IMG/VR virus record: IMGVR_UViG_3300017759_000118
Coordinates: 1-20,013 of that record
Strand: one strand, 5' to 3'
Length of the DNA: 20,013 nt
From: a virus
Shown: positions 1,551 to 18,961 of the stretch, piece by piece
Layout of the letters: each line of letters begins with the position of its first letter
Numbering within the stretch: position 1 is the first letter of the stretch
Notes under the pieces: model-generated
The model's database searches: none
What the model was told of the DNA's origin: nothing
Seen by the model: only the letters and a program-made list of their open reading frames with translations
Position numbers and translations under genes: made by a program

Positions 1551-1774
1551 GTCACTACCTTAATAGTTCCGTTATCATTATACAATGCTCCTGTTTCAAG
1601 TCCAGAAGGAGATATAGGTAAGTCAGTGAGAGTTATTTTAGTACCCCTTAACTCACCTGGGTTATTTAGTTGTATCACAAGTTGAGACAAACTGCGAACC
1701 ATATCATCAAAATACGTTCTATCATACTCTTCGGGCGGTACAGAAAACTGTGGTGGTACTAATTCTCTACTCAT
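1547..1774 (-). CDS. Short conserved-type tail-region protein
   Basis: This gene encodes 75 residues and overlaps both neighbours by four bases (ATGA junctions at 1547-1550 and 1771-1774), so it is translationally coupled. The N-terminal half (PPQFSVPPEEYDRTYFDDMV) is acidic and aromatic. It is followed by a predicted helix (RSLSQLVIQLNNPGELRGT) and a short strand-rich tail ending TGALYNDNGTIKVVT, a motif common in phage tail-associated proteins. There are no catalytic residues, membrane segment or signal peptide. Its place directly after the tail hub gene suggests a small tail accessory or assembly protein. I cannot name it more precisely. Confidence 0.85.
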   Translation of the reverse strand: MSRELVPPQFSVPPEEYDRTYFDDMVRSLSQLVIQLNNPGELRGTKITLTDLPISPSGLETGALYNDNGTIKVVT

Positions 1775-3324
1775 CTTCTGCCATCTGTTTTAACATCTAC
1801 ACGATTCGAGCCTAGTCTCCAAGCAACGCCAGAACCACTACTTTGAACTTTAATACCAAAAGAGCGACCTCTAACACGAGAGTTTTTTTGTTCAGTGGTG
1901 CTACTAACGGTAAAAGCATCATTTGTTGTAAACCCTGTTCCAGGATATCTTTGTCCTTTTAACGTATAAGTAGCTTCTTTTGTTGCACCCGTAGTAGAGC
2001 TTGAAAAATCAATATCAGGAATAAATCTACGGATTAAAGCAAACTGTTCTCCATCTGCTATGTCTATAGGGCTGGAGTCAATGAACGCGGTCAAGGCTAA
2101 GTCGTCTGCGTTGTTACCAATCTCGTGAGTATACAACTGACTAGCTGCAACAGAATCAGTATCATTTGTGGCTCCAAAAGGATATTCATATATACCTCTG
2201 TCTAACCAAGCAGACCTAGCTAAGTTGCCATAGTACCAAACTTTTTCTTCGTAATTATAAATTACATACTTATCATTTTCCCCCGTTCCTCCAGACTTGG
2301 AAGGGTAGTACCAAACAACCTCCCCATAAGCGGTATTTAAACCAGCTATTACTTTTTCACTGTTGGTAGTATCAAAATCTTCAAACACATAATCTTTTAC
2401 AGTGCAAGGTATAGGTTGAACACGTCCATCGTATAAGTAAAACCTATCCACACCCATCCAAAAAACTGTATCATTGTTTGCTATAGCTGCGTTAGAGTTT
2501 CTGATTGTAACATTCCCCGATATTTGAGAAATTCCAAAAGTAAAAGGTGCGCCAATAAACTGCAAAGAATGTACACTTGTATCTGTTATGACTACAATTT
2601 CTCGTCTTGTTTCAACAGCGGCAACAATTTCAGAGCCTGACCCAACTCTTAAATCTCCAGCAGTGTTTGTTGCAGTAGGTGTCCAATCAAAAGGGTCTTC
2701 TTGACTACTAAAACGAATTAAAAGAGGATCTAGCTCAGTGCCCCCGAAAGGGGTTGTCCCAAAAGTTATTACATGTCTGTCTCTATCGGACACTAAAACA
2801 TTTTTGCTAATAGTGGGTGCGTTAGAATCTCTTTGAGTTATGGGGAAAGCTCTAGAGCTAAAGCCTTGGGTTTTGTCCCAATAATATAATAAACCGTTTT
2901 GAGGAAGTATTATTAAGTCTTCTCCAAAATTATCTTGTTTCCAAATGCGTAAAGCTTCATCTAGTGTAATAGCATCACTAGCTGCCAGACCCCAACCTCC
3001 TGCGCCCCAAGAGTCAGCCCCCCAACCCGTTCCTAATAATTGAGAAACACTTCCTTTATTAAGTAAGTAATCTGCATCGCAAGCTCCAGCGTCTGTTAAA
3101 TCAAACCCAGCGTTTGAAGAAAGTGTAACTGTGTAAGTGCTTCCAGTTATAACAGTCATATCAAACTCTCCTGTTAAGAGAGCTATTAAACTATCGTAAG
3201 TTGATCCTGCGCCAAAAGTTATATTTGAAAAAATAACAAAGCTGCCTGTTACCGCCCCATGATTTGAATGATTAACTGTTACAGTAGAACTTCCAGAAGT
3301 GGTGGTGAAAGTAATTAAGGACAT
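1771..3324 (-). CDS. Tail hub/nozzle protein, C-terminal part (P22 gp10-like beta-propeller type)
   Basis: The product has 517 residues. Residues 1-75 are a strand-rich segment beginning FTTTSGSSTVTVNH. Residues 98-112 hold a Trp-Gly string (GTGWGADSWGAGGWG). From about 120 the beta-propeller-like body starts, with landmarks NFGEDLIILPQNGLLYYWD, RFSSQEDPFDWTPT, AGDLRVGSGSEIVAAVETR and DTVFWMGVDRFYLYDGR. These are typical of the P22 gp10 / T7 gp12-like nozzle family in marine phages. Family members I recall begin with the sequence that here sits in the preceding gene (3329-3847), so this ORF lacks the usual N-terminus. It has its own strong ribosome-binding site (GGGAGG, 8 bases from the ATG), and an in-frame TAA lies directly before the ATG, so it is a separate translation unit. 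The expected role is a tail component between adaptor and tail tip. Confidence 0.85.
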   Translation of the reverse strand: MSLITFTTTSGSSTVTVNHSNHGAVTGSFVIFSNITFGAGSTYDSLIALLTGEFDMTVITGSTYTVTLSSNAGFDLTDAGACDADYLLNKGSVSQLLGTGWGADSWGAGGWGLAASDAITLDEALRIWKQDNFGEDLIILPQNGLLYYWDKTQGFSSRAFPITQRDSNAPTISKNVLVSDRDRHVITFGTTPFGGTELDPLLIRFSSQEDPFDWTPTATNTAGDLRVGSGSEIVAAVETRREIVVITDTSVHSLQFIGAPFTFGISQISGNVTIRNSNAAIANNDTVFWMGVDRFYLYDGRVQPIPCTVKDYVFEDFDTTNSEKVIAGLNTAYGEVVWYYPSKSGGTGENDKYVIYNYEEKVWYYGNLARSAWLDRGIYEYPFGATNDTDSVAASQLYTHEIGNNADDLALTAFIDSSPIDIADGEQFALIRRFIPDIDFSSSTTGATKEATYTLKGQRYPGTGFTTNDAFTVSSTTEQKNSRVRGRSFGIKVQSSGSGVAWRLGSNRVDVKTDGRR

Positions 3325-3328
3325 TTAT

Positions 3329-3847
3329 CTAGCCTCCCACTGGAACATCTACATCAGATGTTATAACTGTTACAGTACCCAATGCGCTTGTAGCAAACAA
3401 TGGTGCAGGCGATGGTATTGCACTTACTGAAACAGCACCTAAAGAAGTATTTCCTTCAACTCCTGTGACAGAAACAGTTGGTTCTGTTGATAATCCTATA
3501 ACTACTGAATTTACAGAAGTAGTTCCTTCAACTCCTGTGACTGCAAAAGGCTGTCTTACACTAAGCCTAACAGGGGTTATATCATTAAAATCTCCTCCTG
3601 ATTCAATGTAATATTTTACATTTGTACCAACAGCTAGATATCTGTCACTTGCTAAAGTGACCCAAGCATGTAAAGTTCTTGGTGTTCCAAGATATGTACT
3701 AGAGGTATATTTATTCCAACCCCCTATTTTCTCTGGGAAGCCAAACCTAAATCTGATTTTGTCCCCATCGAACCAACCCCCTTCATTAGAATATGAAGTG
3801 GTTTCTCTGTTGATTCCGGGTCTAAACTGTAATTTAGTTAAAGGCAT
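3329..3847 (-). CDS. Tail hub/nozzle protein, N-terminal part fused to 24-residue repeats
   Basis: The product has 172 residues. Residues 1-95 match the start of marine gp10-like nozzle proteins: KLQFRPGINRETTSYSNEGG, DKIRFRFGFPEKIGGW, an RTLHAWVTLASDRYLAVGTN segment, then KYYIESGGDFNDITPVR. In relatives the chain continues into an FTTTSG segment, which here opens the next gene. Instead, residues about 102-162 hold two to three copies of the VTGVEG(N/T)TS repeat that fills the 636-residue protein at 5441-7351. The gene ends in VPVGG and a TAG four bases before the next ATG, in a different frame from it. The start overlaps the previous stop by one base (TAATG). I read it as a natural split of the nozzle gene in which repeat DNA was acquired at the break. 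An assembly or sequencing artefact is possible but would not explain the repeats. Confidence 0.85.
   Translation of the reverse strand: MPLTKLQFRPGINRETTSYSNEGGWFDGDKIRFRFGFPEKIGGWNKYTSSTYLGTPRTLHAWVTLASDRYLAVGTNVKYYIESGGDFNDITPVRLSVRQPFAVTGVEGTTSVNSVVIGLSTEPTVSVTGVEGNTSLGAVSVSAIPSPAPLFATSALGTVTVITSDVDVPVGG
3362..3544 (-). repeat. 24-residue repeat copies inside the nozzle N-terminal gene
   Basis: Two clear units (TGVEGTTSVNSVV and TGVEGNTSLGAVSV) are spaced 24 codons apart, and a third degenerate one (TSALGTVTV) follows. At DNA level the string ttccttcaactcctgtgac recurs exactly at 3451 and 3523, 72 bases apart. The units match the consensus of the large repeat protein at 5441-7351. Confidence 0.85.
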
Positions 3848-4553: not shown

Positions 4554-5441
4554 CTAGAAGCTCTGATATGCTGTTATGTTATCGGCTGTTTCTAATGCTC
4601 CAGCACTAGAAAGTCTCATTATTACTGTGCCATTAAATTTAAACACTAAACGATTGCTTGAATCTACTTCGGCTGTAAAGTGACCACTTGGACCTAATTG
4701 TAGGGCAGTAGCACCATCTGCTGTTGAAGCAATAACACCTGTCGCAGTTATATTTCTTGCACCGCTTGTATCTTTGTTGCTATCTACGACTACCGCTTTT
4801 GAAGCGGCAACAGTTCCTGCGGTTGTATCTACGTAATTAAGTTCTGTTGTTGTTGCGGTTACACCATCTAGCTTATTCAACTCTGTAGCTGTGGATGTAA
4901 CACCATCCAAAATATTTAATTCAGCAGCAGTAGAGGTTACATTTGTACCTCCGATAGCCAAGGTCGCGGCATCAATTTTTGTCACAGCCAAACTAGCATA
5001 CACATCGGTAACTGTTGCTGTAGAACCGCCACCGCTAAATTTTAAGAAAACGTCACTACCGTTGGTTATCTCAAAGTCTCTACCTGAGTTGTAGGTTCCT
5101 TGAAAGATAAGAATTGATCGACTGCCTGATAAGCTATTTCTTATATGAACAGTTTTTTCTGCATCATTAGGTGTTAATTGCACATATGCGGTAGCACCTA
5201 AATCTCCACTATCTGTAAACTCTATAAACTTGTTACGACCATTCGATACTGCTCCATCACTTATAGGTAAGGAGTTAGGAGATCCAGAAGACCCAGCACT
5301 TGATAGCGTTATAGATATGATGCCATCTATCGCTTGATCTAATATATCAAAGTTTGTATTTGTTGTAGCACCCCAAGTACCAGATTGTTCACCTGTTGCT
5401 GGTTTTTCGATGCCAAGGTTTGTTGTATATGAACTTGCCAT
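4554..5441 (-). CDS. Tail fibre protein with ELNxLDGVT repeats
   Basis: The product has 295 residues. The N-terminus (MASSYTTNLGIEKPATGEQS, then TWGATTNTNFDILDQAIDG) is the typical opening of marine phage and cyanophage fibre proteins. Residues about 168-207 carry three tandem units, TAAELNILDGVT, TATELNKLDGVT and TTTELNYVDTTA, known from trimeric phage fibre shafts. The C-terminal part (ALQLGPSGHFTAEVDSSNRL, FKFNGTVIMRLSSAG) is a common fibre-tip module. The start at 5441 overlaps the repeat-protein stop by one base and has an AGAGGAAG ribosome-binding site. Family knowledge supports a trimeric fibre. The specific target is unknown. Confidence 0.9.
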   Translation of the reverse strand: MASSYTTNLGIEKPATGEQSGTWGATTNTNFDILDQAIDGIISITLSSAGSSGSPNSLPISDGAVSNGRNKFIEFTDSGDLGATAYVQLTPNDAEKTVHIRNSLSGSRSILIFQGTYNSGRDFEITNGSDVFLKFSGGGSTATVTDVYASLAVTKIDAATLAIGGTNVTSTAAELNILDGVTSTATELNKLDGVTATTTELNYVDTTAGTVAASKAVVVDSNKDTSGARNITATGVIASTADGATALQLGPSGHFTAEVDSSNRLVFKFNGTVIMRLSSAGALETADNITAYQSF

Positions 5442-7351
5442 TATGCGGCTTCCTCTGTCCAGTTAGGGTTTTGTGACGGCTCTTCTTCACTCCAAGACGG
5501 TGTTTGACTTACAGTTATATCTGACCAACTTGGGGACTGAGAGGGACTTTCTTCACTCCAAGACGGTGTTTGGGATGGGTTAATTTCTGAATAGTTTGCA
5601 TTCTGATCAGGAACAATCCTTCCCCACACAACTACATTACCAAGAATTGCAGTGTTTGACAATCCTATTGGTGTAACAACGCTTGTTCCTACAATGGTTA
5701 CAGAACCAACTGAAGCAGTGCTAGAAACACCTGTAACAGAAACAAAGGTAACGGTTTCTATAGTTACAGCACCTAATGTACCAGTGGCTTCAACACCTGT
5801 AGGAATAACAATACAATTACCAACAACTGTCTCGTTCCCTAAAGCAGAAGTTGCTTCTTCTCCCGTTACATCTACAGTAGCCCCTGCGCTTACTGTTTCA
5901 TTGCCTAATTCACCTGTTAATGCAGGAACACCAGAAGTTATAGCAGTAACACTTATTGCTACTGTTTCATCACCTAGCTCTCCTTGCGCTTCCACTCCTG
6001 TTGGAACATGATTTGAAGTTCCTGTGACGCTAACAGTTCCTAAAGTTGTGTTTGCAGAAATGCCTGTAACAGATAAATTTGCATCTCCTGTAATGGTTTC
6101 CTCACCAACGGATGATGTTGCTTCAACGCCTGTTACAGTTACACTTGAATTGCCTATTGGAGCAACATTTCCAACTGATCCAGTTGAAGACACCCCTGTT
6201 ACAGAGTATTTAGATTCAATAACTACTGAACCTGTATTTCCTGTAGCAGATACCCCTGTTGGAAATATGTTTGCAGTACCAGTAACAGTTTCATCTCCTA
6301 TATTTAAGGTAGATGCTTGACCCGATACTCCTGTAACTGCGGCACCTGACACAATTAGAGTTCCTGCGTTTGCTACTCCTTGAGTTCCTGTAGATGTAAG
6401 AATGGAAGACCCAGTAACAATTTCACTACCCAAATTAACAGCAGAAGAAACGCCAACAGGAACAAATGATGTGTTTTGTATTGCCTCAACTGTTACAGTA
6501 CCTAAAGCAGAGGTAGCTGACACACCTGTTGGGAATACATTAGCGTTTAAAATTGTAGTAGCAGTTACAGAACCAACAGTTCCTGTAGCAGATACACCAG
6601 TAACAGATACGGGTGTTTCAAGAGATACAGTAAGAGAACCTACTGCTCCTGTAGCAGCCGCAGCTTCTGTAACAGATACGGAAGCTCCTGCTGCCACTGT
6701 TTCGTTACCAACTGAGCCTGTGGCAGATAATCCTGTAAGGCTCAAAGTAGAGTTTGCGGTTACAGTTTCATTACCCACTGAACCCGTAGAAGAGGCGCCT
6801 GTAGGTGAAATGGAGGCTGTGCCAGTGACAGTTTCATTACCCACTGAACCTGTCGCACTTATACTAGTAACACTAACAGAAACACTTACTGTTGTTGTAA
6901 CTGTTTCATTTCCTAAAGCAGTTGTTGCATTTACCCCAGCAACACTAACAGAAACACTTACTGTTGTTGTAACTGTTTCATTCCCAAGAGCAGACGTACC
7001 AGCTAACCCTGTAACTGATACATTTGCCGTGCCAACAACAGACTCTTCACCTAATCCACTTGTGGAGGCTAGTCCTGATACGCCAGTTACGGCTGCACCA
7101 GAAACAATTAAAGACCCTGCATTAGCAACGCCTTGTACTCCTGTTGTTGTGGTGGAAGATGTACCTGTAGCACTTTCATTGCCCAGAACAGAACTAGCAG
7201 CAACACCTGTAACAGAGACAGCAACCCCGATTGCACCGCCCCAACCACCATCGCCCCATGTACTGCCACCCCACTCTCCTGCGGAAGGAGTGGTTACTTG
7301 GTCAGCATCAGCAAAAGGACGTTCCGAAAACGCTGAAAAAGGCAACGCCAT
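5441..7351 (-). CDS. Giant tandem-repeat virion protein (about 24 copies of a 24-residue unit)
   Basis: The product has 636 residues. Residues 1-43 contain FSAFSERPFADADQ and a Trp-Gly string (EWGGSTWGDGGWGG). Residues 44-575 are about 24 imperfect copies of a 24-residue unit with consensus VSVTGVxATxxLGNETVxGT, spaced alternately by Val/Thr-rich strands. Residues 582-636 are five 11-residue units of the type SQTPSWSEESP. There is no signal peptide, Cys pair or catalytic residue; one Cys lies near 513. The composition predicts an elongated beta-rich rod or a chain of small beta domains, and the position among fibre genes suggests an extended fibre or adhesin. The start at 7351 has a perfect AGGAGG seven bases upstream, overlapping the stop of the previous gene, which implies strong translation. 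The antisense frame is also open because of the repeats but is not a gene. Confidence 0.9.
   Translation of the reverse strand: MALPFSAFSERPFADADQVTTPSAGEWGGSTWGDGGWGGAIGVAVSVTGVAASSVLGNESATGTSSTTTTGVQGVANAGSLIVSGAAVTGVSGLASTSGLGEESVVGTANVSVTGLAGTSALGNETVTTTVSVSVSVAGVNATTALGNETVTTTVSVSVSVTSISATGSVGNETVTGTASISPTGASSTGSVGNETVTANSTLSLTGLSATGSVGNETVAAGASVSVTEAAAATGAVGSLTVSLETPVSVTGVSATGTVGSVTATTILNANVFPTGVSATSALGTVTVEAIQNTSFVPVGVSSAVNLGSEIVTGSSILTSTGTQGVANAGTLIVSGAAVTGVSGQASTLNIGDETVTGTANIFPTGVSATGNTGSVVIESKYSVTGVSSTGSVGNVAPIGNSSVTVTGVEATSSVGEETITGDANLSVTGISANTTLGTVSVTGTSNHVPTGVEAQGELGDETVAISVTAITSGVPALTGELGNETVSAGATVDVTGEEATSALGNETVVGNCIVIPTGVEATGTLGAVTIETVTFVSVTGVSSTASVGSVTIVGTSVVTPIGLSNTAILGNVVVWGRIVPDQNANYSEINPSQTPSWSEESPSQSPSWSDITVSQTPSWSEEEPSQNPNWTEEAA
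5444..5608 (-). repeat. Five 11-residue Trp repeats at the C-terminus of the repeat protein
   Basis: The units are DQNANYSEINP, SQTPSWSEESP, SQSPSWSDITV, SQTPSWSEEEP and SQNPNWTEEAA, each 33 bases long and in frame. Their aromatic and acidic character differs sharply from the Val/Thr/Gly repeats before them. Similar PSWSE/PNWTE strings occur in other marine phage structural proteins. Confidence 0.9.
5627..7222 (-). repeat. Tandem coding repeat, 72-base period
   Basis: About 24 in-frame units of roughly 72 bases encode the motif G(V/L)xAT(x)(x)(L/V)GN(E)TV. Units differ at many positions, so most duplications are old. The section encoding residues about 68-116 recurs at 320-367 (both contain GVANAG(S/T)LIVSGAAV), pointing to a block duplication of about ten units. 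Confidence 0.92.
6869..6982 (-). repeat. Perfect 42-base direct repeat within the tandem array
   Basis: The 42 bases at 6869-6910 are repeated exactly at 6941-6982, a distance of 72 bases or exactly one repeat unit. Each copy encodes part of ETVTTTVSVSVSV. This is the most recent visible unit duplication in the array and a likely site for unit gain or loss. Confidence 0.9.
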
Positions 7352-7361
7352 CTTTAGCCTC

Positions 7362-7754
7362 CTATGCTAAGTCTCCGTGAACATTAGAAAATGTAAATTC
7401 TCTATCTACATCAGTATCACCAGTTGCAGACCCAGTTCTTATTATAAAAGTAGATGCTGTTTGTTGAGGACATAAAATAGCACCAGAAGTTGTATTTGGG
7501 TTAGACCCATTTCCACCAGTCAGTCCTCCAACAGAAAAATTCGTATTTGCCATGTTGCTTGTAAAGTTAATTGTATAGTTTCCAGTACCGTTGTCTGTAA
7601 TAGAACCTACATTAAGGTTATCTCTAATAGCTACAGTACCTGTACCATTAAAGTTTACCCAAGCCTTCGCACTACCATTTGCTACATACGACAAGCCAAC
7701 GGAGTTAGCACCACTGGCATCTTTTAATGTGTCTACTCTAAGTTCGCTTGCCAT
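7362..7754 (-). CDS. GDLA-family short fibre/receptor-binding-type protein, copy A
   Basis: The product has 130 residues. The N-terminal peptide MASELRVDTL is shared with its paralogues. The core has AKAWVNFNGTGTVAIRDNLN followed by VGSITDNGTGNYTINFTSNM, the family signature common in marine phage fibre loci. The middle (about 70-115) is variable, and the C-terminus is HGDLA. The codons for GDLA (GGAGACTTAGCA) precede the TAG and an AGGAGG used by the next gene. Its nearest relative in the window is the protein at 11871-12248, and a 53-base stretch (7561-7613) matches that gene at 50 positions. A small beta-sandwich fibre-tip or decoration protein is likely; binding specificity would lie in the variable middle. 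Confidence 0.87.
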   Translation of the reverse strand: MASELRVDTLKDASGANSVGLSYVANGSAKAWVNFNGTGTVAIRDNLNVGSITDNGTGNYTINFTSNMANTNFSVGGLTGGNGSNPNTTSGAILCPQQTASTFIIRTGSATGDTDVDREFTFSNVHGDLA

Positions 7755-8194
7755 TACGCTAAATCTCCGTGCAATATAATCTGACAGTACGTTGCATCTC
7801 CAACAGATGTATTGCTAAAGTTTGTATTAGAAAACATTTTTGCAAAATTGGTTTGTTGTGTTTGATGTATTTGTGATACGTCACAAAAAGAACTTCCCGG
7901 AGTTACTGTATCTGCTTGTTGAACATTAGATGCCCCAGCCCATTGAGCAGCCGCAAAATTAGTAGTAAAATTAATTTGCGTTTGACCTGCGCCCAAATCT
8001 CCTAAAGAACCAACATTTAAACTATCTCTTATTGTATGACTTGAACTTTGTTCATAGTTAGCCCAAGCCTTCGCCAACCCCTGTTGTAAATTAGTAGTTT
8101 TACCAGTAGAATCACTAGATGTAACACCAGCCTCACCATGTATTGTAGTGCTACCACTTGCTATAAGATTAGCTAAATCAGATGCTCTGCTCAT
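7754..8194 (-). CDS. GDLA-family short fibre/receptor-binding-type protein, copy B
   Basis: The product has 146 residues. Its N-terminus differs from the other copies (MSRASDLANLIASGSTTIHG), but the core LAKAWANYEQSSSHTIRDSL then NVGSLGDLGAGQTQINFTTN aligns with them, and it ends LHGDLA. The usual SITDNGTG block is altered to SLGDLGAGQ, so this is a diverged copy. Residues about 80-135 are unlike any other copy and contain several Gln and one Cys near the end. The start at 8194 overlaps the previous stop (ATGA) and uses the GGAG inside the previous gene's GDLA codons. The role is inferred by family: a short fibre or receptor-binding component. Confidence 0.85.
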   Translation of the reverse strand: MSRASDLANLIASGSTTIHGEAGVTSSDSTGKTTNLQQGLAKAWANYEQSSSHTIRDSLNVGSLGDLGAGQTQINFTTNFAAAQWAGASNVQQADTVTPGSSFCDVSQIHQTQQTNFAKMFSNTNFSNTSVGDATYCQIILHGDLA

Positions 8195-8625
8195 GCTAAG
8201 TCTCCACTAAGCATTGTGCCGTTTAGACCGTTATCAAATTTGTTACTTGAAGCTCCTGAATTATAAGAAAAGTTTAAACGTATCGTGCTTGTTGTTAAGG
8301 AATAAAAATCTCTGTCTGGACCTATAATTCCAATATTAAAATCGTTAGTTCCATCGTCTAAAGAAGACATCCCAGAAAAAGCATAATTTACATTGGAAAA
8401 AGAATTAGTGTAGTTAAGTGTTCCATCTCCTGTACCATTATCTGTAATACTAGCCATGTTGATGCTATCTCTAAAAGCAGGAGTACCACTCATACTGAAG
8501 TTAGCCCACCCCTTAACTAACCCTTGTGTTAAACTAGTAGTTGTAGTGCCACCTTCAGCCGTCACAAGCACTGCTCCAGCAGAAGCGACACCTGATATTT
8601 TATCTACTTTGAGTTCACTAGCCAT
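8191..8625 (-). CDS. GDLA-family short fibre/receptor-binding-type protein, copy C
   Basis: The product has 144 residues. It begins MASELKVDKISGVASAGAVL, continues with an EGGTTTTSLTQGLVKGWANF segment, then AFRDSINMASITDNGTGDGT and NYTNSFSNVNY, and ends MLSGDLA. Its VTAEGGxxTxSLxQGL segment is shared closely with copy E (11455-11874), which suggests a common subgroup. The C-terminal third (about 85-135) is unique and aromatic. The start overlaps the preceding stop by one base (TAATG), with GGAG ten bases upstream inside that gene's GDLA codons. Function is inferred from the family only. Confidence 0.87.
   Translation of the reverse strand: MASELKVDKISGVASAGAVLVTAEGGTTTTSLTQGLVKGWANFSMSGTPAFRDSINMASITDNGTGDGTLNYTNSFSNVNYAFSGMSSLDDGTNDFNIGIIGPDRDFYSLTTSTIRLNFSYNSGASSNKFDNGLNGTMLSGDLA
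8195..8205 (-). promoter_or_regulatory. Ribosome-binding site embedded in GDLA codons (copy C to copy B)
   Basis: On the minus strand GGAGACTTAGC lies directly before ATG at 8194. It encodes the end of copy C (Gly-Asp-Leu-Ala) and supplies a GGAG seven bases before the next start, which forms an ATGA overlap with the stop. Confidence 0.8.
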
Positions 8626-9017
8626 TACGCCAAGTCTCCAAATACTAAAGTAAAACCATAACTATTTATGTCACTACTTGAATCTGCGTCATGTTGTTGT
8701 GTTGCCAATAAACTTGTAGTTGTGACACCTATATCTACATTCTGTGTATTGTTTGCGGCTATAATACCATCTGGATAAACATTTTCTAACCCTGCCATAT
8801 TAGTAGTATAGTTTCCATGAGCATCTCCAGTTCCAGCATCTGTACCACTTGATATATTTAAAGTATTACTAGGTAACGAATTTTGAGTTACACCAGCATA
8901 AGTAGTAGAACTTAAATTCATACCAAAAACAGCTTTCGGAGCTAGTTGCTTAGTCAACGCAACAGGGCTAGTGCCATCTTTTGCTGCAATCGTATCTACA
9001 TTTAATACACTGGTCAT
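8625..9017 (-). CDS. GDLA-family short fibre/receptor-binding-type protein, copy D (diverged)
   Basis: The product has 130 residues. The N-terminus MTSVLNVDTIAAKDGTSPVA and the next segment VALTKQLAPKAVFGMN match the layout of copy F (VTLTKQIAAKAWCNFN). The hallmark NFxGTG and RDS residues are lost, and only DAGTGDAHGNYTTNM recalls the DNGTGNYTINFTNNM block. It ends LVFGDLA. This is the most diverged of the six. The start at 9017 overlaps the previous stop by four bases, with GGAG six bases upstream inside that gene's terminal codons. It is likely a short fibre-type protein that has drifted or recombined in its core. Confidence 0.83.
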   Translation of the reverse strand: MTSVLNVDTIAAKDGTSPVALTKQLAPKAVFGMNLSSTTYAGVTQNSLPSNTLNISSGTDAGTGDAHGNYTTNMAGLENVYPDGIIAANNTQNVDIGVTTTSLLATQQHDADSSSDINSYGFTLVFGDLA

Positions 9018-9472
9018 ACAATACTCCAGTAGCCATTAACAGTGACTGTAGCACTTTGTGTGATAGGCCCAGCAGACATACCATTCTCATCACTATCTAT
9101 TGTAAGGTCATTGCTTATTGTCTGACCATTAAGGCGTATAATACTGTTGTTACCTTTAAACGGATAGCGTGTATCTGACTCTGTTTTAGTGTAGTTACCT
9201 TGTACACTGAATACATCATAGACAACCATTTCAAGTACATCGTTACCTTGTGCGCCTGTTGTAAGCGTGACAGTTGTTCCGTTTGTCGCTGCATAGTCAG
9301 TAGTTGGTTTAAGTAACACACCGTTTTGGTATACGTCCATGAACATGCCATCTGTGTACACAAGAACATTAGAACTGCTGTCACTGCCTGAGAACGCTGT
9401 CTGTGCATCAGTAGCTGTATACAGGTATCGTGTTCTTACACCGTTAGTTGGACTTTTTCCTATATATGGCAT
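9014..9472 (-). CDS. MPYIG-type tail fibre protein, copy 1
   Basis: The product has 152 residues. The opening MPYIGKSPTNGVRTRYLYTA and the following domain (FSGSDSSSNVLVYTDGMFMD, then VYQNGVLLKPTTDYAATNGT and DVLEMVVYDVFSV) form a very common N-terminal domain of marine phage and cyanophage tail fibres. Here the chain stops soon after a short C-terminal part (NDLTIDSDENGMSAGPITQS, GYWSIV) instead of continuing into a long fibre. That end resembles the C-terminus of the second MPYIG protein (12245-12691). An AGGATAA ribosome-binding site precedes the start. It probably forms a short attachment or adaptor piece of the fibre complex. Confidence 0.88.
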   Translation of the reverse strand: MPYIGKSPTNGVRTRYLYTATDAQTAFSGSDSSSNVLVYTDGMFMDVYQNGVLLKPTTDYAATNGTTVTLTTGAQGNDVLEMVVYDVFSVQGNYTKTESDTRYPFKGNNSIIRLNGQTISNDLTIDSDENGMSAGPITQSATVTVNGYWSIV

Positions 9473-9476
9473 ATGT

Positions 9477-10031
9477 TTATCCTAAAGCTGTAATTTTTAT
9501 CTGCGGTCTATGAAACTGAGAACTAGTAGCCCCGTCAAACCAAAGTGTCTGATGTAATTTTATCGTGTTACCAGTTGCATATTCTCTAAACTGTAACTTC
9601 AATGTTTTGGCAGAAGACCAAGAAGCTTGTCTTCCAGTATCTGTATTAGCTGTACCACCTATAGGAATTACCCAATTAAAAGTAACTTGTTCTCCGTAAT
9701 ACGATCCTGCGCTCGTTACTCTAGCATCAACAACTTCATCACTGTTTATATAAAATCTTGTATGAAGTATGCCATGTTCATCAACATGCGATCGTAAGTA
9801 AGTAAATTCATATATTACACAAGTCGCCCCAGTTGGCGGGGTATAGTCTATTGAACTTCCTGAAATATCTACATAGGACGTTGTGCCAACTTGTACTGCC
9901 GTAACATTTGTCGTGGTATATGCACCACTTGATACGGTGTAACTTTGACCATCGCACAAAGCGGCAAGTGTCTCCAAAGTCCTCCCACTTGAAGGAGCAA
10001 TTCCTGCTGGTCTAACTTGTGTAAGTGTCAT
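9477..10031 (-). CDS. CDGQS-type fibre/receptor-binding domain protein, copy 1
   Basis: The product has 184 residues. Residues about 15-80 read RTLETLAALCDGQSYTVSSG, TNVTAVQVGTTSYVDISGSS and IDYTPPTGATCVIYEFTYLR, followed by a strand-rich half with FYINSDEVVDAR, FNWVIPIGG and SWSSAKTLKLQFREYATGN, ending in RPQIKITALG. The whole chain aligns with the protein at 10889-11458, so the two are paralogues with different N-terminal leaders. This CDG-YTPPxGTxxVIYEF domain recurs in marine phage fibre loci and looks like a jelly-roll beta-sandwich, possibly trimeric. That fold is my inference. An AGGAAC ribosome-binding site precedes the start at 10031. Confidence 0.87.
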   Translation of the reverse strand: MTLTQVRPAGIAPSSGRTLETLAALCDGQSYTVSSGAYTTTNVTAVQVGTTSYVDISGSSIDYTPPTGATCVIYEFTYLRSHVDEHGILHTRFYINSDEVVDARVTSAGSYYGEQVTFNWVIPIGGTANTDTGRQASWSSAKTLKLQFREYATGNTIKLHQTLWFDGATSSQFHRPQIKITALG

Positions 10032-10040
10032 ACTTTGTTC

Positions 10041-10415
10041 CTATGCGTAAGGACTTGCTCCTAGTAAACTTGTATCCCAAGCAGCTTTAAGTTCAGCAAT
10101 CGTTGTTGCATTTGTTATTGCACTTGCGGCAGGAGCGTTACGAAGATTTGTTTTCTTTGTAACAGATGCAGTCTTTGCACTTGCATCATCTGCCTCTAAT
10201 GCTTTCATATACACAACATCTTCTGCTTCAAGCAAAGGTGCGCGAACTTCCCTAATTTTATCTTTAAAAATTGTTTTCGCAGTATCTAAGTCTTCTGATA
10301 TCACGTTACCAGAAAGTGTCCAAGCATCACGAAAATTACGGTCAGACGGCTTGGTAACACTAGCGGAATTAGCTTGATTGCCGTCCTTATCTACTATGTA
10401 TGTTGTTACAGCCAT
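10041..10415 (-). CDS. FRDAW-motif tail-fibre-assembly-like protein
   Basis: The product has 124 residues. It contains RNFRDAWTLSGNVISEDLDT, then AKTIFKDKIREVRAPLLEAE and DVVYMKALEADDASAK, an Ala-rich helix with KKTNLRNAPA, and an end with TIAELKAAWD. This order (FRxAW, AKxIxxDKIRxxRxPxLxxxDVxxMKALE, LRxAP, IxxAxTxxxLKA) is a widespread small-phage-protein family near tail-fibre genes. It is often assumed to be a fibre-assembly or chaperone-like protein, but I know of no defined activity. The AAGGAG ribosome-binding site is strong. The length is normal for the family. Confidence 0.87.
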   Translation of the reverse strand: MAVTTYIVDKDGNQANSASVTKPSDRNFRDAWTLSGNVISEDLDTAKTIFKDKIREVRAPLLEAEDVVYMKALEADDASAKTASVTKKTNLRNAPAASAITNATTIAELKAAWDTSLLGASPYA

Positions 10416-10426
10416 CTAAATCTCCT

Positions 10427-10885
10427 TTATGCGGCTAGTTCTTCAGAGATACGCCATGCGTTTCTCCACTCTCTTGTTGCAGGAAGTTGGTTCTTCCTAC
10501 AGATAACCATCTTAGGACGATTACCTTCATCCCAATTCTTCCAAACATGCTCTGGCACATCTTTCTGAATCAAGTATTCTATTGCCTCTTCTTCTGTCAT
10601 TGCCTTAATAGGTTCTGTCTGATGTAACAAATACCCACGAGTATGTTTTTTAAAATCAGGTTGAGCTTCATCCTTCTTTAACTCCCAATATACCCAAACA
10701 GGTGGCAATATACCACCCTGTAAAGCACACGCCATCCAGTTAGGGTCAGGCACAAGAATCTTTGCACACTCTTCTAGCTTATCCTCATATACAACTCGAT
10801 ACTCAGACTGCACTCCATCTAGGTTTTCTTTCGCCCAACATAATCTGTCAAATAAGTGTGTGCCTTGAAACTGTGGTGTATCCAT
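10427..10885 (-). CDS. Conserved-type phage protein ending in an FRNAW-like motif
   Basis: The product has 152 residues with a mixed alpha/beta composition, more charged than its fibre-like neighbours. Landmarks are GTHLFDRLCWAKENLDGVQS, YEDKLEECAKILVPDPNWMA, LQGGILPPVWVYWELKKDEA, a helix with MTEEEAIEYLIQKDVPEHVW, and the terminal LPATREWRNAWRISEELAA. The last segment resembles the RNFRDAW opening of the next gene product (10041-10415). I recognise the family as a hypothetical protein beside marine phage fibre genes, with no established function. An assembly or chaperone role is possible because it is soluble, charged and nested in the fibre array. The AGGATAA ribosome-binding site overlaps the previous stop. 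Confidence 0.87.
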   Translation of the reverse strand: MDTPQFQGTHLFDRLCWAKENLDGVQSEYRVVYEDKLEECAKILVPDPNWMACALQGGILPPVWVYWELKKDEAQPDFKKHTRGYLLHQTEPIKAMTEEEAIEYLIQKDVPEHVWKNWDEGNRPKMVICRKNQLPATREWRNAWRISEELAA

Positions 10886-10888
10886 TAT

Positions 10889-11458
10889 TTATCCTATTGC
10901 TGTTATTGTTAAGACAGGTCTAGTAACTTGCGTTGTATTGCCAGATCCATTCCAATATCGAGTATTATGATAACGCTGATCATAACCGGTGCTATAAGAA
11001 CGAGCCATTATTTTAAGTGTTTTAGAGGAGGTCCACGAAGTAAACGACCCTACATCAGTATTGTCTGCACTTGCATTACATTGTATTGGCCATTTAAAGG
11101 TTTGATTCATAGCTCTATACGCACTTGGAGCGTGTCTAGAAGATACAACTTCAACATCATCAATATATAATATACTATGGCATATAGAATCTGCACCATC
11201 TTCTGCGCCTATTTGTGACCAAAACTCATAAATAACAGTTTTTGTTCCTTCAGGGGGAGTGTATGTGATTGAAGACCCTGTTACAGCAGTATAAGTAGTG
11301 TTTAATAATTGAACAGCCGTTACATTTTCTAAAGAATACGTACCACTCATCGTAGTAATGCTCCTGCCATCACACACACCAGATACTACCTCAAGTATTC
11401 TGCCAGTGCCTGCATTATTGTTCTGCAACAGGAGATTATCTACTTTTAATGTACTCAT
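10889..11458 (-). CDS. CDGRS-type fibre/receptor-binding domain protein with GDLA-array leader, copy 2
   Basis: The product has 189 residues. The first nine residues (MSTLKVDNL) are the same leader as in the GDLA-family proteins. The rest (GRILEVVSGVCDGRSITTMS, YTPPEGTKTVIYEFWSQIGA, FKWPIQCNASADNTDVGSFT, SWTSSKTLKIMARSYSTGYD, ending RPVLTITAIG) is paralogous to the protein at 9477-10031. So it appears to combine the leader of one family with the body of another. The start at 11458 uses the GGAG within the previous gene's GDLA codons and overlaps its stop (ATGA). A fibre-tip or receptor-binding role is inferred. Confidence 0.87.
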   Translation of the reverse strand: MSTLKVDNLLLQNNNAGTGRILEVVSGVCDGRSITTMSGTYSLENVTAVQLLNTTYTAVTGSSITYTPPEGTKTVIYEFWSQIGAEDGADSICHSILYIDDVEVVSSRHAPSAYRAMNQTFKWPIQCNASADNTDVGSFTSWTSSKTLKIMARSYSTGYDQRYHNTRYWNGSGNTTQVTRPVLTITAIG

Positions 11459-11874
11459 GCTAAGTCTCCTTTAGTATCTACACATAATATAGTACCGTCA
11501 AACGCCCCATAATTTCCTGATTGCAAACAATGTGTCCTTATAGTGCTTGTAGTCATATTAGCTGTATTAGCACCAAAACCAAAAAGCGAACCCCTTGCTA
11601 CATCACCATTCCAACTACCTGTACAGGCTGAGTTATAATTAGCATTATTCATATTGTTTGTGTAATTTACAGTATAATCACCTGTTCCATTATCAGTCAA
11701 AGAACCTACATTTAGACTATCTCTAGTAGCAATTGTTCCTTCACCACTAAAATTTACCCAAGCCTTTGCCAACCCTTGTTGCAAGGATTGCGTAGCCGCA
11801 CCACCCTCGCTTGTAACTGTAATGTCACCAGCAGAGGTCTTACCTGTGAGATTGTCTACTAAGATTTCACTCAT
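11455..11874 (-). CDS. GDLA-family short fibre/receptor-binding-type protein, copy E
   Basis: The product has 139 residues. It starts MSEILVDNLTGKTSAGDITV, then EGGAATQSLQQGLAKAWVNF, GTIATRDSLNVGSLTDNGTG, DYTVNYTNNMNNANYNS, a variable and partly Cys-containing region (about 82-130), and ends VDTKGDLA. It carries the complete family core (AKAWVNF-RDSLNVGS-DNGTG-NYTNNM). The EGGxxTQSL segment groups it with copy C. It is joined on both sides by ATGA overlaps with GGAGACTTAGC ribosome-binding sites. Function is by family inference: short fibre or receptor-binding component. Confidence 0.88.
   Translation of the reverse strand: MSEILVDNLTGKTSAGDITVTSEGGAATQSLQQGLAKAWVNFSGEGTIATRDSLNVGSLTDNGTGDYTVNYTNNMNNANYNSACTGSWNGDVARGSLFGFGANTANMTTSTIRTHCLQSGNYGAFDGTILCVDTKGDLA
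11459..11469 (-). promoter_or_regulatory. Ribosome-binding site embedded in GDLA codons (copy E to CDGRS gene)
   Basis: The minus-strand string GGAGACTTAGC is followed at once by ATG at 11458. It is identical to the strings before 8194 and 11874, although the downstream gene here belongs to a different family. Confidence 0.8.
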
Positions 11875-12248
11875 GCTAAGTCTCCGTGTACAGCATCATT
11901 TACTTGAATAGTATCTACATTTGTACCACTGTTGTTTTCTGTTGTTGTTCTAAATGAACTGGTAGTAGGTGCAGAAAACATAAAATCGTACAAACCATAG
12001 CTTCCATAATTAGCCGCACCTGCATTAAACTGATAAAACGAATAATTTGCGTCTGCCATATTGTTTGTAAAGTTAATTGTATAGTTTCCAGTGCCGTTGT
12101 CTGTAATTGAACCCACATTGAAGCTATCTCTCAATGCTACAGTGCCAGTGCCATTAAAGTTACACCAAGCCTTTGCTGCAATCTGCTTAGTCAGCGTAAC
12201 AGCACCGCCAGCAGATGTTTGTAATGTAGTAACTTTTATTGTACTCAT
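11871..12248 (-). CDS. GDLA-family short fibre/receptor-binding-type protein, copy F
   Basis: The product has 125 residues. The leader MSTIKVTTL is followed by TLTKQIAAKAWCNFNGTGTV, ALRDSFNVGSITDNGTGNYT, INFTNNMADANYSF, a Tyr/Gly-rich variable region (about 70-110) and the end DAVHGDLA. It is the copy most similar to copy A (7362-7754): the DNA at 12067-12119 matches 7561-7613 at 50 of 53 positions although the genes lie about 4.5 kb apart. The stop overlaps the next start (ATGA) with the embedded GGAG ribosome-binding site. A fibre or receptor-binding role is inferred from the family. Confidence 0.88.
   Translation of the reverse strand: MSTIKVTTLQTSAGGAVTLTKQIAAKAWCNFNGTGTVALRDSFNVGSITDNGTGNYTINFTNNMADANYSFYQFNAGAANYGSYGLYDFMFSAPTTSSFRTTTENNSGTNVDTIQVNDAVHGDLA
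11875..11885 (-). promoter_or_regulatory. Ribosome-binding site embedded in GDLA codons (copy F to copy E)
   Basis: GGAGACTTAGC on the minus strand lies directly before ATG at 11874. It doubles as the Gly-Asp-Leu-Ala codons of copy F and the Shine-Dalgarno of copy E. Confidence 0.8.
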
Positions 12249-12691
12249 ATTATCACCAACGTACCGCCATCTTCTACTTGAAGAGTGACACTAGAGTTAA
12301 CTGTAATAGGGCCAGTGGCACTAGCATTTTCTGCACCACCTATCGTTACATTAGTACCTACCGTTTTATCATTCACACGAAACATACCCCCACCAAGAAA
12401 GTCCGACTTGTTAGCCGTTGGAGGTGTAACTGTGGCAATATTAAGACCAAGAAAATTTACAAAGATATTAGCAGTACCCGTTGAAGGTGCTGTGCTAAAG
12501 CTAAGTGTTGTACCACTCACGCTATATTTATTTGTATCTTGAATAACACCATCAACAGAAACAACAATATCTTGGTCGTTTCCTACTGTTCTAGACAGTG
12601 TAAAAGACGTAGTAGAGTTATTGCCATTAAATCGCTCTACGGCTGGTATATCCACAAAGTTTGCTGTTGGTTGACCACCGATGTAAGGCAT
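12245..12691 (-). CDS. MPYIG-type tail fibre protein, copy 2
   Basis: The product has 148 residues. MPYIGGQPTANFVDIPAVER is followed by FNGNNSTTSFTLSRTVGNDQ, DIVVSVDGVIQDTNKYSVSG and LSFSTAPSTGTANIFVNFLG, the usual fibre N-terminal domain of marine phages with its phage-fibre 'TxFTLxR' and 'VxVxGVxQ' strands. The C-terminal NVTIGGAENASATGPITVNS, then SVTLQVEDGGTLVII, parallels the end of the first MPYIG protein (9014-9472). It has a TAGGAG ribosome-binding site and overlaps the first GDLA-family gene by four bases. It opens the fibre array and may be its attachment piece. Confidence 0.88.
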   Translation of the reverse strand: MPYIGGQPTANFVDIPAVERFNGNNSTTSFTLSRTVGNDQDIVVSVDGVIQDTNKYSVSGTTLSFSTAPSTGTANIFVNFLGLNIATVTPPTANKSDFLGGGMFRVNDKTVGTNVTIGGAENASATGPITVNSSVTLQVEDGGTLVII

Positions 12692-16758: not shown

Positions 16759-17426
16759 TAGGAAACCCTGTAGTATCTAAGATTAGGAGATACATTAAAT
16801 GAAGCTCTATCTCTGTCTTCTGTCATTGCTCTTTCAAACTCTTCATCATAAATAGCTTTTAAAAGTTGTATTCTATCTGGAGACTTTTTAATTGCTAAAT
16901 AATATGCAAGACCAGCAGCAAGACAAGGATAAAATCTAAAAGGAACTTCAACAGTATTTGTAAATGTATCAGCGTCATCAATTCTTGTTAAAGCATCATA
17001 GACTAAAATATCTGTGCTATTTTCAGGAGCAGGCCATATTTTTAATACTGGTGTTATTTGTCTGTCTATAAAAAATTGAGTGGGTCTAGCTTGAGTGGAT
17101 TTGTTAGGTATAGATAAATATTCGTCCCTACTAACACGCTCCATGCTAATGTCTGTGCTGTCTCTGCGAACAACCATAGACAAAACATCAATAACATCTG
17201 CACCCAAAGTAATATCCGCGTCACCTTGCGTTACAGTTTGTGTTCTTTGAGTGATAGTCCATTGATTAAGACCTCTATTAGCCCAATCAGCAAATAAAAG
17301 ATTCAACGACCTTTTAGCAGTTTTTAAATCATAACCAGTACGAACCTCTAAACCGCAACGCTCAAAAGCCTCCTCAATGTAATCAGATACATCGAGTTCA
17401 AAATTAGTTGAACCTGATACAGTCAT
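16758..17426 (-). CDS. P22 gp4-like head-tail adaptor (tail accessory factor type)
   Basis: The product has 222 residues. TNFELDVSDYIEEAFERCGL, EVRTGYDLKTAKRSLNLLFA, DWANRGLNQWTITQRTQTVT, DVIDVLSMVVRRD, EYLSIPNKSTQARPTQFFID, LKIWPAPENSTDILVYDALT and VEVPFRFYPCLAAGLAYYLA follow the order of marine-phage gp4-like tail accessory factors, which attach to the portal ring and receive the tail hub. The C-terminal helix (YDEEFERAMTEDRDRASF) is also typical. The start overlaps the stop of the 54-residue gene by one base (TAATG). The adaptor assignment is well supported by motif order. The P22 equivalence rests on family knowledge. Confidence 0.9.
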   Translation of the reverse strand: MTVSGSTNFELDVSDYIEEAFERCGLEVRTGYDLKTAKRSLNLLFADWANRGLNQWTITQRTQTVTQGDADITLGADVIDVLSMVVRRDSTDISMERVSRDEYLSIPNKSTQARPTQFFIDRQITPVLKIWPAPENSTDILVYDALTRIDDADTFTNTVEVPFRFYPCLAAGLAYYLAIKKSPDRIQLLKAIYDEEFERAMTEDRDRASFNVSPNLRYYRVS

Positions 17427-17590
17427 TATTTTTTAACTTTACCACCACGCATCATTTTTTTGGCTTTCTTTACTTTGCCGCCATCCATCATGCCCATAGC
17501 CATAGCTTTTCTAGGTGATACATTGCCACCACGCATCATTTTCTTGGCGACACCGCCACGCATCATTTTCTTAGCTTTTTTCATTACCAT
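17426..17590 (-). CDS. 54-residue Lys/Met/Gly repeat protein (KKMMRGG)
   Basis: This is a short gene that is easy to miss. The sequence begins MVMKKAKKMMRGGVAKKMMR and contains three copies of AKKMMRGG, with a central VSPRKAMAMGMMDGG segment. It ends GGKVKK and a TAA that overlaps the next ATG by one base. At DNA level the minus-strand string AAAATGATGCGTGG(T/C)GG recurs three times. I choose the ATG at 17590, seven bases after AGGAG; an alternative ATG lies at 17584. The first 20 bases overlap the end of the preceding gene. It is strongly basic with no acidic residue except one Asp. Similar KKMxxGG peptides are common in marine phage structural loci, with unknown function. Nucleic-acid binding or packaging with the genome is a guess. 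Confidence 0.78.
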   Translation of the reverse strand: MVMKKAKKMMRGGVAKKMMRGGNVSPRKAMAMGMMDGGKVKKAKKMMRGGKVKK

Positions 17591-18143
17591 TTTTTAATCT
17601 CCTATAAATAGATTTTCTACGCTCATATAAAGACCCAGCATCATAATAATCTTCGCATACATTATAATACCCTTTTATTCTAAGGGAATCTGAAGCTTCT
17701 TGCAACTTACTTAATCTTTGGAAAAAAATCATAGCATAAGGAGGACTTGAATCTTCTTCCATATCAAGACTTTCATCTAATAACTCATTACTTTCATCTT
17801 CTGGATGAAAGCCCATGAGATACATATCTTTTGTATTATACTTTCCTTGACTTATATCTTGATTTAAATCATCTAAAAAAATATCCAATTCATCTAAATC
17901 CATTGGGAAGAAGTCAATTAATATCAATACTTCTTTGTCATCTTTCCAATTGTTTATGCATGAATATATTAAATCTTCACCGTTTATATAGTTAAATTCA
18001 AAAGCTATTTTTTCATTCATCCAAGCCGCTTTTGCGTATGGGCAAGGAGGTAAATTATTATAGTGTTCGTTAGGAATTTCTAAAGCATATTTAGACCAAT
18101 TCCTTAAATCTGATTTAATTTTTTCTTCTAAATCAGGAAACAT
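17571..18143 (-). CDS. Acidic protein with PPCPYAKAAW motif, unknown function
   Basis: The product has 190 residues. It opens MFPDLEEKIKSDLRNWSKYA and LEIPNEHYNNLPPCPYAKAA, followed by W. The PCPYAKxAW box near residues 32-41 is recognisable from uncharacterised marine phage and bacterial proteins. A hydrophobic strand (KEVLILIDFFPMDLDELDIF) and a long acidic stretch (about 113-135) follow, then IFFQRLSKLQEASDSLRIKG and a Tyr/Arg-rich C-terminus. It is one of the few acidic, globular-looking proteins between basic ones. The start overlaps the preceding stop (TAATG). It may be an enzyme or accessory factor, but I cannot name an activity. Confidence 0.85.
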   Translation of the reverse strand: MFPDLEEKIKSDLRNWSKYALEIPNEHYNNLPPCPYAKAAWMNEKIAFEFNYINGEDLIYSCINNWKDDKEVLILIDFFPMDLDELDIFLDDLNQDISQGKYNTKDMYLMGFHPEDESNELLDESLDMEEDSSPPYAMIFFQRLSKLQEASDSLRIKGYYNVCEDYYDAGSLYERRKSIYRRLKNGNEKS

Positions 18144-18427
18144 TAAGAAGACCTTTTTTTCCTTTTAACAGCCTGCACTCTTCTTGGTTTACCCGCTGGT
18201 TGTCCAAGCTTTTTTTTCTGCGCTATTCTGCTTCTTTTTTCGGATACACTAAGTTCGCTTGCTGTTTTTGGTGTTTTAGAGCTAACCCGCTTGGAGGGGC
18301 GACAATATGGAGTACCCCGTTTTTCACTTTTGCCACGCCCACACGCCTTCCCCGTTGATACGTCCTTCCAATCTTCTTTGAACCATCTTTTAAGAGCCAA
18401 ACCTTTTTTTGTTTTTCGTACTGCCAT
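18143..18427 (-). CDS. Small basic phage protein ('LKRWFKEDWKDV' family)
   Basis: The product has 94 residues and is very rich in Lys, Arg and Ser. AVRKTKKGLALKRWFKEDWK, DVSTGKACGRGKSEKRGTPY, then CRPSKRVSSKTPKTASELSV and a basic tail with VQAVKRKKRSS. The LKRWFKExW-CGR-YPxCxPSxRVSxKTPxT pattern is a widespread small domain in phages and large algal viruses. No function is known to me. The two Cys (in CGR and YCRPS) could pair or bind metal. An alternative overlapping frame at 18223-18438 is rejected because it lacks any family pattern. The stop overlaps the next start by one base. Confidence 0.87.
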   Translation of the reverse strand: MAVRKTKKGLALKRWFKEDWKDVSTGKACGRGKSEKRGTPYCRPSKRVSSKTPKTASELSVSEKRSRIAQKKKLGQPAGKPRRVQAVKRKKRSS

Positions 18428-18434
18428 TCTTTGC

Positions 18435-18683
18435 TCATGTAAACTTTGTAACCTTGCGCCTGTCTTCCATCACAAGACCACAGCCACGAGCTACATTAGA
18501 GTTTTTAGAAGGTCTTTTGGCAGGCAACGCAGGCCCACCATCTTTCATTTTCTTAGCTTTAGACTTATTACCCCAATTTGAAGCGCCAACTTTTCTACAC
18601 TTGGCGATAGCACCTGATGCATAAGCGGAAGGGAAAACTTTGTATCTAGCCTTTACTTTTCTATAACATGCATCTTTAGCCAT
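18435..18683 (-). CDS. Small basic phage protein ('YASGAIAKCRKVG' family)
   Basis: The product has 82 residues. MAKDACYRKVKARYKVFPSA, then YASGAIAKCRKVGASNWG is a compact domain I recognise from many phages and some algal viruses. It is followed by a basic linker (KSKAKKMKDGGPALPAKRPS) and RGCGLVMEDRRKVTKFT, a tail motif (RGCGxVMxxRRKxTK) frequent in marine phages. There are three Cys in all. The function is unknown; the strong positive charge suggests contact with DNA. No clear Shine-Dalgarno precedes the ATG at 18683, only an A/G-rich run, so coupling to the upstream gene is likely. Confidence 0.88.
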   Translation of the reverse strand: MAKDACYRKVKARYKVFPSAYASGAIAKCRKVGASNWGNKSKAKKMKDGGPALPAKRPSKNSNVARGCGLVMEDRRKVTKFT

Positions 18684-18703
18684 TTTTTTTCTTCTTTTTT
18701 TTC

Positions 18704-18961
18704 TTAATAAATTTTTTCTTTTGAGGAGGATTCGATATCTGTTGCCTCATTGAGCCACGCGAGATTGCCATTTCCGCTCCTATTTACATAATCTTCCCAC
18801 AGAGTTGTTATCATTTTATGATTTTCATTTACTTTAACAGCTATAACAGCCGTATCTGTTTTTAAATCTACTACAGATGTTGCGATCCATGCAAGCAAAC
18901 CTATAACAGAGGTTAATACGACAGTAACGAATGCAATAGATATTCCATTTAACATTTCCAT
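18704..18961 (-). CDS. Small single-span membrane protein (holin-like candidate)
   Basis: The product has 85 residues. Residues about 6-31 (GISIAFVTVVLTSVIGLLAW and onward) form one strong hydrophobic span with a short N-terminus. A polar helix follows (DLKTDTAVIAVKVNENHKMI) that could form a coiled coil, then a soluble tail ending SSSKEKIY. The layout is compatible with a holin, a spanin-like helper or another small phage membrane protein. No endolysin is visible in the window to support lysis. The start overlaps the end of the preceding gene by 13 bases and has AAGGA upstream; a second in-frame ATG lies at 18955. It is one of very few membrane candidates in the window. Confidence 0.75.
   Translation of the reverse strand: MEMLNGISIAFVTVVLTSVIGLLAWIATSVVDLKTDTAVIAVKVNENHKMITTLWEDYVNRSGNGNLAWLNEATDIESSSKEKIY

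Follow-up and report, generated by a model that had tools for sequence, protein, structure and literature searches.

In shufflons, in the toxin tips of Rhs and contact-dependent inhibition (CDI) systems and in tail-fibre adhesin exchange, a fixed N-terminal anchor is joined to an exchangeable C-terminal recognition part. Integron gene cassettes form an array of exchangeable units. The locus described here is an array of short fibre-like genes at positions 7362-12691 of a 20,013-base virus record (IMG/VR record IMGVR_UViG_3300017759_000118, positions 1 to 20,013; the window), in which all main genes are on the minus strand. Six of these genes end in the residues Gly-Asp-Leu-Ala (GDLA). The array is probably composed of ordered slots that are filled by exchangeable fibre bodies, with each body carrying the Shine-Dalgarno (SD) sequence of the gene that follows. 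Unlike shufflons, Rhs and CDI tips or exchanged adhesins, the paralogues here stand in tandem and are presumably expressed, and the module end appears to double as a ribosome-binding site for its follower. Unlike integron cassettes, the unit is less than a whole gene, and its ribosome-binding site would serve the next gene rather than its own. In addition, no invertase, integrase or other recombinase was matched in PHROGs among the 30 of ~36 genes scanned in the 20-kb window fragment, a possible further difference from shufflons and integrons.

Overlapping genes are known to place such signals inside their neighbors. Genes no more than 4 nucleotides (nt) apart have the SD within the upstream coding sequence, where it constrains the codons (Eyre-Walker, cited in PMC2784483). 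The SD shifts into the spacer once the spacer is long enough (Palleja et al. 2009, PMC2784483). The present array differs in that one conserved protein end carries the putative SD, with hardly an exception, across hundreds of paralogues, and in that this end belongs to a module moving between loci. Marine phage host-recognition metaviromic islands contain variable tail-fibre and C1q-type genes whose N-termini are conserved and whose C-termini vary; the available part of that account does not describe slots, cross-slot bodies or a translation signal, and 'cassette' and 'ribosome' are absent from it as words (PMC3909814). Puniceispirillum phage HMO-2011 (GU557055) has the same array families and the junctions TTGGTGACGCTATGAG, GGAGACCTAGCATGAG and TGGAGTATCGTATGA, with other bodies and another slot number than the window, and its genes are annotated only as putative tail fibers. 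An SD within an upstream gene is therefore a known principle, and its coupling to module shuffling appears to be new. In the open-access literature on SD and fibre topics, no report was found of shuffled fibre modules that carry the SD of their follower, which does not prove absence.

In the window, the six GDLA ends are coded GGAGA(C/T)TT(A/G)GC(A/G) on the minus strand. The GGAG lies 7 nt from the next ATG at three ATGA overlaps (8202-8205, 11466-11469 and 11882-11885), which are identical in sequence, and 10 nt from it at two TAATG overlaps (7765-7768 and 8636-8639). The other -4 overlaps of the window have more variable SD sites. In the sixth gene, 7362-7754, the GGAG at 7373-7376 is ~21 nt from the next ATG and too far to serve, and the gene that follows carries an AGGAGG of its own at 7358-7363. 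The first-pass annotation of this DNA had reported the six ends, the distance of 7 to 10 bases in five of them and the three identical ATGA junctions, and its coordinates and sequences are correct. It had also held that the family of the next gene is irrelevant, which is borne out by gene 11455-11874, the neighbor of which (10889-11458) belongs to another family. The features are as follows, in the direction of transcription:

12253-12257, minus strand: GGTGA in TTG GTG ATA (Leu-Val-Ile end of gene 12245-12691); putative SD variant for gene 11871-12248
11871-12248, minus strand: GDLA-family gene, N-terminus MSTIKVTTL; best match phrog_11355, tail fiber protein
11882-11885, minus strand: GGAG at the end of gene 11871-12248; putative SD for gene 11455-11874
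11455-11874, minus strand: GDLA-family gene, N-terminus MSEILVDNL
11466-11469, minus strand: GGAG at the end of gene 11455-11874; putative SD for the other-family gene 10889-11458
10892-10895, minus strand: AGGA in ATA GGA TAA (Ile-Gly-stop, gene 10889-11458); putative SD for gene 10427-10885
9480-9483, minus strand: AGGA in TTA GGA TAA (Leu-Gly-stop, gene 9477-10031); putative SD for gene 9014-9472
9014-9472, minus strand: short fibre-like gene with a WSIV end, opening the array of slots 1 to 4
9024-9027, minus strand: GGAG in TGG AGT (Trp-Ser of the terminal WSIV, gene 9014-9472); putative SD for gene 8625-9017
8625-9017, minus strand: GDLA-family gene, slot type 1, N-terminus MTSVLNVDT
8636-8639, minus strand: GGAG at the end of gene 8625-9017; putative SD for gene 8191-8625 (TAATG, 10 nt)
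8191-8625, minus strand: GDLA-family gene, slot type 2, N-terminus MASELKVDK
8202-8205, minus strand: GGAG at the end of gene 8191-8625; putative SD for gene 7754-8194 (ATGA, 7 nt)
7754-8194, minus strand: GDLA-family gene, slot type 4, N-terminus MSRASDLAN
7765-7768, minus strand: GGAG formed by the Gly-Asp codons of gene 7754-8194; putative SD for gene 7362-7754 (TAATG, 10 nt)
7362-7754, minus strand: GDLA-family gene in the last slot, slot type 3, N-terminus MASELRVDT

The codons of the GDLA end were compared across related loci, of which ~300 came from IMG/VR and 16 were bacterial. These yielded 796 family genes, no two alike over the final 265 bases, of which 569 have a GDLA end; in 532 of the 569 the next start is at -1 (ATGA) or +2 (TAATG). 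The terminal Gly codon of the 569 genes is GGA in 547, GGG in 21, GGT in one and GGC in none, so that GGR accounts for 568 of 569 terminal Gly codons and for 35% of internal ones (GGT 44%, GGA 24%, GGC 21%, GGG 11%). With one gene taken per 60%-identity cluster (399 genes), the terminal counts are GGA 385, GGG 13 and GGT 1. Elsewhere in these clustered genes Gly is coded by GGT (44%), GGA (23%), GGC (22%) and GGG (11%), and the Gly codons that precede Asp number 123 GGT, 91 GGA, 49 GGC and 26 GGG. The difference from the terminal codon gives a Fisher p of ~1e-81, which is a guide and no exact probability because clustered genes are still related. These internal controls rule out base composition, or AT bias, as the cause of GGA. 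The first-pass annotation had proposed to test whether GGAG use is stricter at this Gly than at others, and had named free synonymous variation at equal spacing as the result that would speak against its reading. Stricter use was found, and no such variation was seen in the 532 near-start genes. The pattern is not due to chance and is stronger than that annotation had stated.

Three other families of the array encode different candidate SDs in-frame at their ends. WSIV ends use TGG AGY in 107/107 genes, where internal Ser is AGY in 61%. LV[TI][LI] ends use TTG in 51/53 and GTG in 50/53, yielding TTGGTGA/GGTGA (11% and 18% internally), and [IL]G-stop ends (AGGATAA) use GGA in 27/29 (28% internally). 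All of these array-end strings are complementary to the 3' end of 16S rRNA at initiation spacing, with a standard bacterial 3' tail assumed that may not be the host's. Under this model, the register of the next AUG is 14 for ATGA-type junctions (200/204), 17 for TAATG-type (310/328), 13 for WSIV (107/114) and 15 for GGTGA (68/71). Unlike strings at unlike distances thus share nearly one register, which is best explained if they are ribosome-binding sites. Free duplex energy without register wrongly prefers GGT and was superseded by the register model.

The GGAG also persists when the protein end changes. Near a following start, replacement of Asp usually leaves the string in place, as GGAGAA, GGAGGY or GGAGCA. 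Where Ser or Arg stands in place of Asp, the Gly codon becomes GGG, and the resulting GGGAGT and GGGAGG retain GGAG in another frame. It is lost in a few ends (GN, GK, GI, GT, GQ and GL). A sister group has its stop directly after Gly-Asp or Gly-Gly, with the spacer outside the gene (GGAGATTGATCCATGAGC). Because GGAG is kept by other codons and because other families have their own in-frame matches to the anti-SD, the GGAG of the GDLA end is read as the SD of the next gene, and initiation in vivo would be driven by it. A constraint on the protein only, through folding, trimerisation or docking, with codons that follow composition, is improbable. The Leu-Ala residues are indeed conserved past any SD need, and array-last genes without a close follower retain Gly-Asp or Gly-Gly with GGC codons. 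For the codon, however, this explanation is already refuted by the internal Gly residues, including those before Asp, that lack such a bias. Moreover, GGAG outlasts changes of Asp to Glu, Gly, Ser or Arg, unrelated families encode other SDs, and GDLA lies after the last strand of the predicted structure (predicted local distance difference test, pLDDT, 86), where confidence is reduced.

The location of the SD follows the spacing of the genes. When the next start is at +6 or nearer, the SD core is wholly in the upstream gene in 623/638 cases. When it is at +12 or beyond (n=102), the upstream gene never contains the whole core: the spacer holds the SD in 53 cases, the SD spans the stop in 20, and none was found in 29. 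Relatives ending in 'IFR*', which have longer spacers, place the SD after or across the stop. Array-last genes that end in FGD* or FGG* and have no gene within 28 bases use GGC for Gly in 5/5 (GGCGAT three times, GGCGAC and GGCGGC); one FGDQ* end retains GGAGAT. The five contigs have two kinds of downstream sequence and so perhaps represent two independent cases.

Downstream of their last family gene, loci L061, L057 and L031 have in common an AT-rich string, GATATACTAAAAGAAAAA, which may be a promoter or a terminator.

Array order was read behind homologues of gene 9014-9472. Since slots are named by N-terminus, N-terminal fidelity was judged from array position and not from the slot label. 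The first gene begins M[TS]SxLNV (99 cases), the second MASxLKV (89), and the third mostly MASxLRV (70) or MS[KR]A..LA (11); the last two are reversed in the window's own group. N-termini are therefore bound to slots, and shuffling of whole-gene cassettes was rejected. Two, three or four family genes are found between the same flanking genes. The body, defined as residue 76 to the end minus 4, is less faithful: its best match in another locus falls in the same slot in 123/285 cases (43%), where chance gives 29%. There are 23 cross-slot body pairs at 65-100% identity. In nucleotide alignments of 13 of these pairs, the N-terminal parts are at background, identity climbs at a conserved core and mostly runs at ~75-100% through the GDLA codons, and it is 36-56% beyond the stop. 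One example is the end of window gene 7362-7754 (...cacggagacttagcaTAGgagg) and an L002 relative in another slot (...cacggagatttagcaTGAgtag). High identity from the core through GDLA that ends at the stop/start junction indicates that the SD travels with the mobile body. The first-pass annotation had stated that each cassette carries the signal for its follower. Mobile units do so, though the unit is core, body and GDLA, and the N-termini stay with the slots.

Such pairs could in principle be chimeras of metagenome assembly, since a conserved core common to paralogues could mislead assemblers. This is very unlikely: some arrangements recur in contigs from several metagenomes, and the isolate HMO-2011 carries bodies that are found elsewhere under other N-termini at 92% and 83% identity. 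The former is 92% identical over 66 residues to an L247 body with another N-terminus and junction type. A body 92% identical over 66 amino acids is present in L247:4991-5393 and L334:6429-6809, under the two different N-termini MASELRVNT and VALTQVINK. The isolates HMO-2011 and Mel-JY33 have the same junctions as the array. A tblastn search of isolate phages with the slot-1 gene gave no record, and one with the slot-2 gene gave two.

In the proposed mechanism, each slot would have a start codon and an N-terminal segment of its own and would accept an exchangeable C-terminal fibre body, presumably a receptor-binding part. The last codons of the body would supply the next slot with its SD, which is GGA GAY for GDLA-family bodies and another in-frame SD in neighboring families. 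Exchange of bodies would apparently rely on homologous recombination, with the core (KAW.NF..TGT..RDS.N...) at one end of the moved segment and the GDLA codons at the other, and the recipient slot would provide the stop and next start as GCA+TGA, GCA+TAATG or GCA+TAGGAGG. Because the SD moves with the body and the recipient gives the stop and start, the next gene would retain a ribosome-binding site whatever body is inserted. It is not far from an even question, with the balance slightly against, whether the 3' end of the module has been selected as a universal connector, that is, an SD followed by an A-ending Ala codon that fits ATGA, TAATG or TAG starts. If so, host-recognition tips could be shuffled among translationally linked slots with downstream expression kept. 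GGA may be favored over GGT because it is workable at both slot spacings. The codon GCA occurs at 270/328 TAATG junctions (82%), where its A is unneeded, and in 40% of internal Ala codons; this preference fits a portable end.

Several observations weigh against the SD-bearing, portable end. GGT also pairs with the anti-SD in ATGA junctions under the register model, yet is almost absent. The Asp, Leu and Ala codons are biased too (GAC 83%, CTC 33%, GCA 92%), so GGAG alone is insufficient. RNA openness was rejected as the cause of this bias: native codons are only modestly more open than their synonyms (mean fractile 0.65, p 4e-8), which makes openness at most a partial cause. Leu and Ala hardly ever change at this end despite having no part in the SD, while Leu codons vary, and thus a constraint at the protein level, or homogenisation through exchange, must be at work. 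Last-slot GDLA genes, whose follower either bears an SD of its own or has a more distant start, nonetheless retain GGA in 10/11. Recent arrival of modules from other slots would explain this, as would another constraint, and several cross-slot pairs include exactly these genes. Finally, most of the data are metagenomic contigs, and related genes are not independent. Two suggestions of the first-pass annotation stand in part. GGA only ahead of a close follower agrees with the array-last FGD*/FGG* genes and fails for the last-slot GDLA genes; conservation of GDLA on account of the RNA is supported for Gly and the codon after it and does not extend to Leu-Ala.

Ordinary overlapping genes offer a simpler account and are a serious possibility, though a rather doubtful one: with the spacer absent, each junction would be separately selected for an upstream SD, and portability would be a by-product. 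The published principle of Palleja et al. (2009, PMC2784483), the placement of the SD after the stop in 'IFR*' relatives and the partial slot fidelity of bodies are all in its favor. It leaves unexplained the GGA of last slots, the GCA of TAATG junctions and the use of one universal end for three junction types, and the observed cross-slot transfers that carry the SD count against a by-product. Alternatively, GGAGAC..GC could be primarily a recombination anchor or site in the DNA, with its SD likeness secondary. It does form the right boundary of moved segments, the Asp, Leu and Ala codons are also biased, and Leu codon concordance is raised within loci (0.49 vs 0.31). This is nonetheless unlikely, as Leu codons vary, the five array-last FGD*/FGG* genes use GGC and no integrase was seen among the 30 scanned genes of ~36 in the window. 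Furthermore, the WSIV, LVTL and IG* ends have only anti-SD complementarity, in nearly the same register, in common with GGAGAC..GC.

A translation signal carried by exchangeable bodies would tie ribosome binding to the unit that recombines in the host-recognition genes of aquatic phages, HMO-2011-like ones among them. It would explain how tightly overlapping fibre arrays are reshuffled without silencing the gene behind, and would give a DNA-level rule for locating module boundaries in metagenomes. It would also be a case of a protein end with codons set by the ribosome-binding site of its neighbor.

In PHROGs, phrog_11355 'tail fiber protein' is matched by 5/6 of the window GDLA genes (E 3e-11 to 6e-25); gene 8625-9017 has no match there, yet aligns with its GDLA paralogues. 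Pfam yields no more than a weak match of one neighbor to the T7 tail-fibre N-terminal domain. A fold search of the PDB gave nothing at E<=0.001, the top entry being a phage tailspike (E 0.066), and a PDB sequence search gave no convincing match. Within the array, the spacer 10415-10426 before gene 10041-10415 reads AAAGGAGATTTAG-ATG, a near-copy of the GDLA codons outside any gene.

Gene 5441-7351 encodes 636 amino acids with many VSVTGVxAT..LGxETV repeats and a C-terminal PSQTPSWSEE repeat. It is without a Pfam or PHROGs match, and its relatives have a conserved N-terminus and a variable middle. A single profile, phrog_3287 (virion structural protein), is matched at its front (5-98) by gene 3329-3847 and at its rear (108-524) by the adjoining gene 1771-3324; the two apparently are one structural gene split in two with a new start. 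The break between them has VTGVEG repeats resembling those of gene 5441-7351, and at their junction, GTGGGAGGCTAGATAAATG, a putative SD lies within terminal Gly-Gly codons. Elsewhere in the window, 17426-17590 encodes a 54-amino-acid Lys/Met/Gly-rich peptide with repeated KKMMRGG units, and similar basic small genes are present at 18143-19233.

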